This document shows, piece after piece, positions 51,958 to 55,873 of a DNA stretch of 64,000 bases (positions within the stretch are counted from its first letter, which is position 1; each line of letters begins with the position of its first letter). The notes beneath the pieces were generated by a model that was not told where the DNA came from, did no database searches, and saw only the letters and a program-made list of their open reading frames with translations. Origin of the DNA: Ilumatobacteraceae bacterium (GTDB taxonomy: Bacteria > Actinomycetota > Acidimicrobiia > Acidimicrobiales > Ilumatobacteraceae); assembly GCA_023263695.1 (NCBI GenBank), contig JALQUZ010000001.1:51040-115039 (forward strand). The letters run 5' to 3'. Both the position numbers and the translations under genes were made by a program.

Positions 51958-52677
51958 CTAGTGACGAGGACTGAACATTGCGACGGACCGTAGCCGTCTT
52001 TCAATGTGATGCTCCATTGCCTGAGTTGCAAGTTGCTGTAACTCAAAACTTGCTGGTGACTCGGGTTGAGCCAATGCAACATTGAGTTGTCCACCCAGAA
52101 CCTGTTGCAATAAGTCAATGGCTGGTTGAGAAATGCTGATACCTGTTCGACAGGTCCGACACTGCACCCCACCTTGAAAAATGTCGAACGCTACAAGTTC
52201 TTGCGTCGAGCCACATGAAACGCACAATTGCACCTGTGGACTCACCCCCTCTGCCGCTAATAGCTTCCAGTAAAACGATGCGAGCATGACTGGCGATTCC
52301 TGCTCCATCAATGCGTTCAGCGCACCTTGCAACATGCGATACAAATGTGGGGACGGCTCTCGATCTTCTGCTATTTGATCAACGGCTTCGAGCATTGACA
52401 TCCCCTGCGTCAATTTGTCGAGGTTGTTATGCAATCGAGCAGAAGAATCAATCAATTCCACCTGCGACACCGTGTCTAATTCTCTTCCCTTATACAGCTG
52501 CACATCCACGTGACTCATGGGTTCGAGCCTTGCGCCGATTTTGGATTTGGTCTTTCGAATACCTTTGGCAACTGCACGAACTTTGCCATGACGTTCGGTC
52601 ATCAGCACAATGATGCGGTCAGACTCCGCAAGTTTGTAACTTCGCAGCACTATTCCTTTATCGCGATACAGCGTCAT
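51958..52677 (-). CDS. recO: DNA repair protein RecO
   Basis: YRDKGIVLRSYKLAESDRIIVLMTERHGKVRAVAKGIRK; CVSCG...CRTC Zn motif. Confidence 0.94.
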   Translation of the reverse strand: MTLYRDKGIVLRSYKLAESDRIIVLMTERHGKVRAVAKGIRKTKSKIGARLEPMSHVDVQLYKGRELDTVSQVELIDSSARLHNNLDKLTQGMSMLEAVDQIAEDREPSPHLYRMLQGALNALMEQESPVMLASFYWKLLAAEGVSPQVQLCVSCGSTQELVAFDIFQGGVQCRTCRTGISISQPAIDLLQQVLGGQLNVALAQPESPASFELQQLATQAMEHHIERRLRSVAMFSPRH

Positions 52678-53264
52678 GAGTCCACGCCACCAAAGCGACG
52701 ATCTCTGCGCTGGAAATCGTTAATCGCCAACTCGATGTCTTCACTGTTGCAATGAGGCCATGGCGTATTGAGATACACCAACTCGCTATAGGCAAGTTCC
52801 CACACCAAAGATGGCGGCAGTTGCGTTGGGACTCCAAAGATCACCACAAGATCTGGCTCGCTAGATGCTGGATCCAAAATGGCACTTGCCAAACTCTTCT
52901 CGGTGATCTTTTCCGTCGACATGCCATTGACCGCGCGCACAAAACGTTGCTGACCATCTGCACGGACATCGATAACGACCGAAGTTTCTCCGCGAAGAAT
53001 AACCTTTTCGTTAATGAGTGTCCCATTACACGATTCGGAAATTTTGTTCATGAGTTCGCCGTCATCACTGGCAATGGAAATACCAGAATATGGATACACC
53101 GTTAACCACTGCGCTCCAACTTGTTCGATCGATGATCGCAAGGTTGCAACATACATAGACCATTCAAAAACGGACATGGCCTTCCATTGATCAAGAGTTC
53201 CCCCGACAACGAGCACATGTCTCAAAGAAGAACCGTCAGCCACACCACTATTGTCGCACGCCAT
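52674..53264 (-). CDS. Degenerate cis-prenyltransferase (UppS)-like paralog, candidate non-catalytic subunit
   Basis: C-terminal DLVVIFGVPTQLPPSLVWELAYSELVYLNTPWPHCNSEDIELAINDFQRRDRRFGG aligns with UppS; no DGNGRWA; the N-terminal part of the 302-aa ORF is antisense to uppS, so the start is placed at 53264. Confidence 0.82.
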   Translation of the reverse strand: MACDNSGVADGSSLRHVLVVGGTLDQWKAMSVFEWSMYVATLRSSIEQVGAQWLTVYPYSGISIASDDGELMNKISESCNGTLINEKVILRGETSVVIDVRADGQQRFVRAVNGMSTEKITEKSLASAILDPASSEPDLVVIFGVPTQLPPSLVWELAYSELVYLNTPWPHCNSEDIELAINDFQRRDRRFGGVDS

Positions 53265-53292
53265 CAGTGCCCGTTTCAGTAAGGTGTTCGGG

Positions 53293-53985
53293 ATGGAACC
53301 GGCGAATCCCGAATCACCAGTCCATATCGCATGCATCATGGACGGCAATGGGCGTTGGGCAAAACGTCGTGGCCTTCCCCGCACTGAAGGACACACAGCG
53401 GGTGAAAACAACCTGGCAGAGGTCGTACGTGTGTGCGCCACACGAAACGTCGGATGGCTAACAGTTTTCGGCTTCTCAACCGAGAATTGGGTTCGTCCGC
53501 CAGCGGAGGTGAAGCACATTCTTTCACTGCACAAACGCCTCTTCGGCCGTATCGAAGAGCTCAATGCCAATAATATTCGCATTCAGTGGATCGGAAGACC
53601 ATTTGATGAGCCAGGATCAAAAACTCCAGCATTTATTCAACGTGCTATTCAGCAAGCTATAGACGACACCGCACACAACACCGGCATGGTGCTGACTGTT
53701 GCCTTCGATTATGGAAGTCGGGCCGAGTTGCTTCGTGCTGCTCAACATGCACGTGCTCAGCAACACTCAGGGCTCGACATCACATCTCAGGAAATTACAA
53801 ACAACTTGTACTCGCCAGAACTACCACCCGTTGATGTAGTCGTCCGCACGTCTGGAGAATCGCGAATTTCCAATTTTCTCTTGTGGCAAATCATGGGATC
53901 AAAGGTGTACTTCACCGAACGCACTTGGCCTGACTTCGATGCACACGAAATTGATAACGCACTCAAGTTGGTCCATGCCAACTAA
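53293..53985 (+). CDS. uppS: Undecaprenyl diphosphate synthase catalytic-type subunit lacking the C-terminal RRxRRFGG tail
   Basis: ACIMDGNGRWAKRRGLPRTEGHTAG, FGFSTENWVRP, RTSGESRISNFLLWQ, WPDFDAHEIDNALKLVHAN-stop; TTG at 53251 is an alternative start. Confidence 0.93.
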   Translation: MEPANPESPVHIACIMDGNGRWAKRRGLPRTEGHTAGENNLAEVVRVCATRNVGWLTVFGFSTENWVRPPAEVKHILSLHKRLFGRIEELNANNIRIQWIGRPFDEPGSKTPAFIQRAIQQAIDDTAHNTGMVLTVAFDYGSRAELLRAAQHARAQQHSGLDITSQEITNNLYSPELPPVDVVVRTSGESRISNFLLWQIMGSKVYFTERTWPDFDAHEIDNALKLVHAN

Positions 53986-55873
53986 AGCGCAACACGAACA
54001 TGATGTCGTAGATCTCCTTCAGGCAGTAGTAGACACGCTTCCCAATGTTGAGGTGCGTTCTGGTCAAGTGACGATGGCGAGTGCGATTGCGGACGCAATC
54101 GCCAGTGAACGACATCTCATCGTGCAAGCAGGAACCGGAACCGGCAAGACTTTGGGTTATCTCGTCCCCGCAGCTGCTTCAGGCAAACGAGTCGTGGTGT
54201 CAACATATACGAAGGCACTGCAGGACCAACTCGCTAAACACGACCTACCAGTGTTGTCCGCTGCATTGACACCACTGATCGGTCGCGAAATCACGTGGGC
54301 AGTTCTCAAGGGCCGAAACAATTATCTTTGTGCACAACGCATCGCAGAAATTCGTGAGCCAAAGCAACACAAGCTTGATCTTGAAGAGTTCAGCACGCAA
54401 GTGAAGGCTGACATCGACAAACTTGTTGCTTGGTCGGAAACCACGAACACTGGTGATTCGGGAGATTTGTCGTGGAGCCCACGTGATGCAGCATGGCGGC
54501 AAGTCAGTATCGGAAGCGATGAATGCCCTGGCGCAAGTAGGTGTCCGTCAGGAGAAACATGTTTTGCAGAGCGTGCACGAGATTCCGCATCTGTCGCTGA
54601 CGTCATCGTTGTCAATACTCATATTTATGGCTTAGATGTAGCGACCGATGGTGCAATTCTTCCTGAACACGATGTAGTCATTTTTGATGAGGCACATCAA
54701 CTTGAAGATGTGATGAGCGCTTCCGTCAGCATGGCAATCAGTCCAGGAAGCATCCAGCACGTCATTGGTGCTCTGCGCTCAATTGTGCGAGACGATGCCC
54801 TGTCCGGATCGCTGCAACAATTAGCTCTAGAATTTGGTGGTTACATCGCAGGCGATGTTGATAAGCGCGTGCCCATCCCGCTTCCCGACGATATTCAAGA
54901 TGTACTTGCTCGGTTGCGAATCAAAATTGATGAGGCCGTCTCTGGATTGAAATTGATCTCCAGCACAGACGAATCTGCGAAACAACGAATATTGAGAGGT
55001 CAAATGCTCAGCAATCGATTGATCGAAATCATCGATGGCTCGCTCACGGCAGGCACACGAACCGTTGCATTTGTGAGCGGAAGCAAAGACCGGCCCGTTT
55101 TGGAACTTGCTCCTCTCCACGTAGGCCCTTCCCTGAACAGCGGCGTGTGGTCAAAGCGAACAGCAATCCTCACGAGTGCCACAATTCCGCTCGCGATGCC
55201 GGCTCGCATTGGACTCGAGGAAGACGAGGTCGATGCGATTGACGTTGGAAGCCCTTTCGATTACGAAAATTCTGCAATTTTGTATTGTGCAAAGCATTTA
55301 CCATCACCTAATGAACCGCGTCGAGATGACGCAGTACATGATGAATTAGAGAAATTAATCAATGCAGCACAGGGTCGAACACTGGCCCTTTTCACCACAT
55401 ATCGCGCAATGCATGCAGCTGCAGATGAGATGTCAAGGCGTCTTGAATACAAAGTTTGGCGTCAAGATGACTTGCCAAAAATGGCACTTGTTGATGCATT
55501 CGCTACTGAGGAATCGTCTTGTCTGTTTGCAACCGCAGGATTCTTTCAAGGCGTTGATGTTCCTGGACAAACTCTCAGCCTTGTTGTCATTGACAAAATC
55601 CCATTTCCTCGTCCTGATGATCCGTTGCTCAGTGCCCGACGCGACGAAATTGGAAAAACTTCATTCAGCGAGATTGATATTCCGCTCGCGGCTACGCAAC
55701 TTGCTCAGGCCACTGGTCGATTGATTCGATCGCGTAAAGACACAGGTGTAGTTGCAATTCTCGATCCGCGACTCGCCACCAAGGGATACGGGAAAAAACT
55801 TGTCTCTACGCTTCCACCAATGAAACGCACCATCGAATTCTCTGAGGTTGCGCAATTTCTCAAGTCCATCTAG
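53975..55873 (+). CDS. DinG-family ATP-dependent helicase
   Basis: VQAGTGTGKTLGYLVPA, FeS cysteines (CAQRI..ECPGASRCPSGETCF), IFDEAHQLED, GFFQGVDVPG, ATGRLIRS. Confidence 0.93.
   Translation: MPTKAQHEHDVVDLLQAVVDTLPNVEVRSGQVTMASAIADAIASERHLIVQAGTGTGKTLGYLVPAAASGKRVVVSTYTKALQDQLAKHDLPVLSAALTPLIGREITWAVLKGRNNYLCAQRIAEIREPKQHKLDLEEFSTQVKADIDKLVAWSETTNTGDSGDLSWSPRDAAWRQVSIGSDECPGASRCPSGETCFAERARDSASVADVIVVNTHIYGLDVATDGAILPEHDVVIFDEAHQLEDVMSASVSMAISPGSIQHVIGALRSIVRDDALSGSLQQLALEFGGYIAGDVDKRVPIPLPDDIQDVLARLRIKIDEAVSGLKLISSTDESAKQRILRGQMLSNRLIEIIDGSLTAGTRTVAFVSGSKDRPVLELAPLHVGPSLNSGVWSKRTAILTSATIPLAMPARIGLEEDEVDAIDVGSPFDYENSAILYCAKHLPSPNEPRRDDAVHDELEKLINAAQGRTLALFTTYRAMHAAADEMSRRLEYKVWRQDDLPKMALVDAFATEESSCLFATAGFFQGVDVPGQTLSLVVIDKIPFPRPDDPLLSARRDEIGKTSFSEIDIPLAATQLAQATGRLIRSRKDTGVVAILDPRLATKGYGKKLVSTLPPMKRTIEFSEVAQFLKSI

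Follow-up and report, generated by a model that had tools for sequence, protein, structure and literature searches.

Undecaprenyl diphosphate synthase (UppS) is an essential antibacterial target. Reviews of cis-prenyltransferases (cis-PTs) describe heteromers in eukaryotes and homodimers in bacteria (PMC7839719). In the eukaryotic enzymes (DHDDS-NgBR, yeast Rer2/Srt1-Nus1, plant CPT-CPTL), a subunit that contains the substrate-binding residues but lacks the C-terminal RxG motif is combined with a catalytically dead homologous subunit that carries RxG, yeast Nus1 being the exception among these dead subunits. According to crystal structures, RxG is supplied by the counter-subunit (PMC6450523, PMC7573591). 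For the M. tuberculosis enzyme, this takes the form of an RxG arginine, Arg292*, that acts across the dimer (PMC6450523); in DHDDS-NgBR the tail of NgBR completes the DHDDS site, and the complex is about 400-fold faster than DHDDS alone (PMC7573591). A prokaryotic two-protein cis-PT has also been described, although it is archaeal: Methanosarcina mazei MM_0618/MM_1083 is reported to be used for a glycosyl carrier lipid (PMC8131916, citing Emi 2019). Bacteria do have two-subunit trans-prenyltransferases with one catalytic and one helper subunit, HepS/HepT and HexA/HexB (PMC7839719). However, these have an unrelated all-alpha trans-type fold and the helper is not a UppS.

The window, by which we mean the entire 64,000-nucleotide stretch of Ilumatobacteraceae DNA that was analyzed, contains two divergent genes, with their ATGs 28 bp apart, both of which encode members of the UppS superfamily (PF01255). 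One is a UppS without its C-terminal tail and the other is a degenerate UppS paralog (Table 1). Very probably, these genes encode an obligate heteromeric cis-PT of independent origin. This reading is supported by gene content, residue complementarity, co-occurrence, selection, synteny and fold; the pairing of the two proteins, the completion of the active site in trans, the essentiality of the pair and its product are inferred.

Table 1. Features of the uppS/paralog locus. Positions are those of the window.
Feature	Position	Strand	Basis or remark
Tail-less UppS, putative catalytic subunit (P0001), 230 aa	53293..53985	+	PF01255 1-209/219, E=1.9e-66
Start codons of tail-less UppS	ATG 53293; alternative TTG 53251	+	
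MDGNGRWA motif of tail-less UppS, intact	53338..53361	+	Mg/FPP-binding Asp = E. coli D26, plus R30
E. coli E213 position in tail-less UppS	53902..53904	+	Lys (K204)
Stop codon of tail-less UppS	53983..53985	+	Replaces R-x-R-R-F-G-G tail
Degenerate UppS paralog, putative non-catalytic subunit (P0002), 196 aa	52674..53264	-	PF01255 124-219/219, E=2.9e-12
C-terminal RRDRRFGG region of paralog (residues 187-193)	52686..52706	-	RxG motif, proposed to act in trans
Paralog E161 (E. coli E213 position)	52782..52784	-	Retained
recO, directly downstream of paralog	51958..52677	-	Synteny; marks ancestral uppS-recO-glyS slot
DinG-type helicase gene, same orientation as tail-less uppS	53975..55873	+	Synteny

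The tail-less UppS retains every tested substrate-binding residue of UppS and ends before the C-terminal RxG motif. Its PF01255 score is 224 bits versus a cut-off of 27. Its AlphaFold2 model (pLDDT 87.8) finds UppS or other cis-PTs as the best PDB matches in Foldseek, with a TM-score of about 0.85 to UppS crystal structures. A sequencing slip is an unlikely cause of the missing tail, since the uppS stop is contained in the start of the DinG-type helicase gene, with an overlap of 11 nt. The stop of the paralog overlaps the recO start by 4 nt, and the two overlaps place both genes within compact gene strings. The first-pass annotation had reported that no RRFGG follows the UppS stop, and the same is true beyond the window: nine relatives were also free of any in-frame RRFGG remnant downstream of the stop. 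Three genomes (G031, G521 and G522) seemed to read on past a TGA, but these extensions, considered as a hidden RRFGG or readthrough, turned out to be random Arg-rich frames.

The paralog scores 47 bits against the same PF01255 cut-off. The N-terminal half of the protein is very divergent, and its C-terminus reads RRDRRFGGVDS, in which R187, R189, R190, F191, G192 and G193 are invariant in 31 paralogs. The best Foldseek matches of its AlphaFold2 model (pLDDT 87.2) are all UppS or cis-PTs, with a TM-score of about 0.6. About 40 fewer residues separate strands B and D than in UppS, and hence a stretch with helix 3, which in UppS is a part of the hydrophobic product tunnel, is missing. Judging by the model, the paralog should be unable to hold a growing chain. 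The first-pass annotation located both reading frames correctly and was right that the paralog keeps RRFGG and has lost the catalytic motifs. The extent of the paralog had to be revised, as the conserved start lies at about 53264 and gives a protein of 196 aa, whereas the 302-aa frame merely continues antisense through uppS.

Our comparison set consisted of proteins from relatives, 33 catalytic and 30 paralogs, plus 23 single UppS proteins of other lineages within the order. None of the 33 catalytic proteins has RRxG, whereas all 30 paralogs do. In E. coli numbering, the catalytic set shows no variation at D26, N28, R30, R39, H43, F70, E73, N74, W75, R77, E81, R194, E198, R200, S202 and N203. 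The D, N and R of DGNGR in particular are present in 32/32 catalytic relatives and absent from 30/30 paralogs. The paralogs have lost the catalytic residues, except that position 200 is R in nine of the 30. Position 26 is always G in them, position 194 is V, I or A, and position 202 is P in 29/30. The reciprocal loss of motifs claimed by the first-pass annotation is thus a property of the whole set. That annotation missed a second reciprocal split, which concerns the glutamate equivalent to E. coli E213, a residue for which mutagenesis and crystallography indicate a part in Mg/IPP handling. Glu occupies this position in just 2/32 of the catalytic proteins, 18 of which have K, but in 30/30 paralogs and 23/23 outgroup single UppS. 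The annotation also missed the absent tunnel stretch of the paralog and the fact that the paralog sits in the ancestral uppS slot (see below).

The outgroup single UppS proteins retain the catalytic residues, RRxG and E213 altogether. Out of 93 positions that are invariant in the outgroup, the catalytic protein alone retains 46 and the paralog alone 10, including Y211, E213 and the Arg/Gly residues of the tail; a further five persist in both, 18 are lost from both and 14 are intermediate. The reciprocal pattern extends over the compared proteins (33 catalytic, 30 paralog) as well as 70 further named loci, and it is therefore not due to chance. The split of RRxG is uniform over about 100 related loci.

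The likeness to DHDDS-NgBR extends to the E213 position, where the residue is lost in human DHDDS (C in QTSHSCLVF) and kept in NgBR (E in HIRLTEIVSL). The window pair differs from the eukaryotic enzyme in several respects. It is of independent origin, with a paralog found in one family only and located in the uppS slot of bacteria. The paralog shows no sign of an N-terminal membrane anchor, the catalytic protein has no C-terminal tetramerization extension, and the native role of the pair is presumably to make the wall carrier and not dolichol. Orthology of the paralog with NgBR/Nus1 was considered and rejected because its profile hits bacterial UppS at 2e-21 versus NUS1 at 1.1e-7; the restriction to one bacterial family and the ancestral uppS slot contradict it as well.

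The pair shares its fold, catalytic residues, uppS-recO-glyS slot and inferred product class with homodimeric UppS (E. coli, M. tuberculosis Rv2361c and sister Acidimicrobiia). However, each identical subunit of a homodimer contains an active site and RxG, which is not the case for either protein of the window pair, where the halves are split over two genes. Of the traits of a heteromeric cis-PT, the pair has a catalytic subunit that keeps the D, R, N and S substrate residues but not RxG, a homologous dead partner with RxG and the obligate co-occurrence of the two; the remaining trait, subunits that associate physically and are both needed for full activity, is inferred. The first-pass reading of the locus as a bacterial DHDDS/NgBR analogue is hence well supported in anatomy, co-occurrence and evolution, while formation of the heterodimer, dependence of activity on the pair and the product remain inferred.

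In a survey of 61 relatives, the pair occurs throughout the family and is absent from the 24 remaining families of this order, in which any match was a single UppS spanning PF01255 1-219. In a survey of the class, every match outside the family, among the matches listed, spans the same 1-219. Family genomes with a completeness of 80% or more number 148; of these, 135 have at least two PF01255 matches, the second ones having been inspected only among the matches listed, and nine have one. A profile of the paralog run against 297 genomes of the phylum gave 149-276 bits for family members and no more than 107 bits outside, where the matches are the C-terminal half of ordinary UppS. A wider spread of the paralog is thus ruled out in this sample, as the score falls to the UppS background. 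Furthermore, among 80 named loci from Ilumatobacteraceae, 'Acidimicrobiaceae' and acIV MAGs, 70 have both genes intact; in all 70 the genes are divergent and the UppS is tail-less, and E213 is kept in three.

The first-pass annotation proposed to look for co-occurrence in related genomes, and we found that the tail-less UppS accompanies the paralog, whereas family members with a full tail lack it. The latter are G032 (genus g11) and G564 and G565 (g290), and all complete single UppS genes of Ilumatobacteraceae/acIV (three genomes of two genera) are full-length and without a paralog. No tail-less UppS with intact flanks but without a paralog was found among the relatives, the apparent cases being contig ends or G481; the refuting conditions of the first-pass annotation that are open to computation thus all came out in its favor. 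Three single-match genomes (G021, G503 and G524) are truncated by contig ends; in G088 the sole match is a paralog at the beginning of a contig, and in G476 it is a fragment of a paralog. No PF01255 match was found in G501, G533, G543 and G566 (80-84% complete) or in G026 (77% complete).

In G481 the reading frame of the paralog (C8:1953-2423, L175) is broken beside an intact tail-less uppS, which could be a sequencing error or real decay. The pair occurs twice in G473 (L178 and L179), on separate contigs and with one locus intact and the other cut off by the contig end, resulting from either duplication or a mixed bin. In L110 and L113, the tail-less UppS runs into the boundary of the retrieved DNA some 2.4 kb away from the paralog, apparently with extra DNA between the genes. 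Elsewhere in Acidimicrobiia, families f32, f35, f37, f40 and others have two PF01255 genes, of which the listed ones are full-length and perhaps make two products. Several public MAG titles (such as Bifidobacterium breve, Acidimicrobium ferrooxidans, Ferrithrix thermotolerans, Acidobacteria) look misassigned, as the contigs (L091, L092, L095, L110, L113, L115 and L116) encode the Ilumatobacteraceae pair.

The gene order points to the history of the split. Sister families and G032 have dinG(<-) uppS(->) recO(->) glyS(->), with dinG visible only in some of them, and the pair-bearing genomes have dinG(<-) tail-less uppS(<-) paralog(->) recO(->) glyS(->). By synteny, the ancestral uppS position belongs to the paralog, whereas the tail-less uppS was added next to dinG. 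In a three-gene tree (glyS, dinG and recO), G032 falls inside the family clade (support of 100), at its unresolved base, which is consistent with G032 retaining the state before the split. The catalytic gene and the paralog each form a single clade. The catalytic clade is on a long stem, and as a result an inverted duplicate cannot be told from an acquired copy. The split probably arose once, in the ancestor of most Ilumatobacteraceae: a second uppS copy would have appeared between dinG and uppS-recO-glyS, after which the copy in the original slot would have decayed to an accessory role and the new copy would have lost its tail.

It is likely, in our view, that the pair is a heteromeric undecaprenyl diphosphate synthase of bacteria, which reached the division of labor seen in DHDDS/NgBR by an independent evolutionary route, with RxG and the E213 segment in one protein and the catalytic pocket in the other, and that most of the family needs it for the wall. 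The tail-less UppS would bind FPP, IPP and Mg2+ and elongate the chain. The catalytically dead paralog would pair with it via the usual cis-PT dimer face and place its C-terminal RRFGG and AYSE glutamate segment over the S1/S2 site of its partner, a role that the second identical subunit performs in homodimeric UppS. Each heterodimer would then have one working active site, and the pair would be the sole source of the polyprenyl carrier for peptidoglycan in the cell.

Gene content bears on the last point. The genome of the window (G000; 1.67 Mb, 91% complete) contains exactly two PF01255 matches, the tail-less UppS and the paralog. A second full-length UppS, which according to the first-pass annotation would refute its reading, was not found there by the PF01255 search. 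G000 also encodes MraY, which requires a polyprenyl phosphate carrier. Hence, the pair is the only cis-PT of the cell, as far as is visible, and providing the carrier for the wall must be the minimum of what it does. This limits, but does not remove, the possibility that a heteromer does form and that its main job is a different product length (e.g. >C55) or regulation and not a simple replacement of the homodimer. Longer chains are the usual product of heteromeric cis-PTs elsewhere (PMC7839719, PMC7573591), although the archaeal heteromer yields only C45-50 (PMC8131916). Overall, we find such a specialization possible but unlikely.

Loss of RxG does not in itself prove dependence on a partner because some activity without one is known, both for DHDDS alone, albeit weak (PMC7573591), and for the RxG-less archaeal MM_0014 (PMC8131916). 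The tail-less UppS could accordingly act alone as a homodimer, with the paralog retained separately as a regulator or chaperone with another role, and the 18 otherwise invariant positions that are lost in both proteins leave room for a new way of closing the site. We find this improbable. The paralog retains exactly the residues that are missing from UppS, the co-occurrence has no clean exception while full-tail family members have no paralog, and DHDDS without NgBR is slower by the factor given above (PMC7573591).

Both genes are under strong purifying selection, with pairwise dN/dS values within the genus of the window of about 0.06-0.14 for the paralog and 0.03-0.09 for uppS (these are rough, as dS is near saturation for several pairs). 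A decaying paralog pseudogene or, given that the genomes are mostly MAGs, an assembly artefact can therefore be rejected despite the broken frame in G481, as the frames are intact in 30 relatives, 80 further named loci give matches, and the single-contig genomes G033 (L055; 4,830,181 bp, carrying the pair), G062 and G186 have two PF01255 matches each.

We found no published bacterial heteromeric UppS in the open-access literature, subscription papers being outside that search. As far as found, a convergent bacterial counterpart of DHDDS/NgBR is thus unreported. If the heteromeric reading is true, the pair would be a small and probably soluble model in which to study the use of a dead partner by eukaryotes and archaea and the reason for it. 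As the same two features were handed to the helper, the role of RxG and the E213 segment in trans would be directly testable, and the unsplit relatives G032, with its ancestral gene order, G564 and G565 would allow a comparison of the states before and after the split. For the organisms themselves, it would mean that a naturally split bacterial UppS exists throughout a common aquatic family, including its single-contig genomes.
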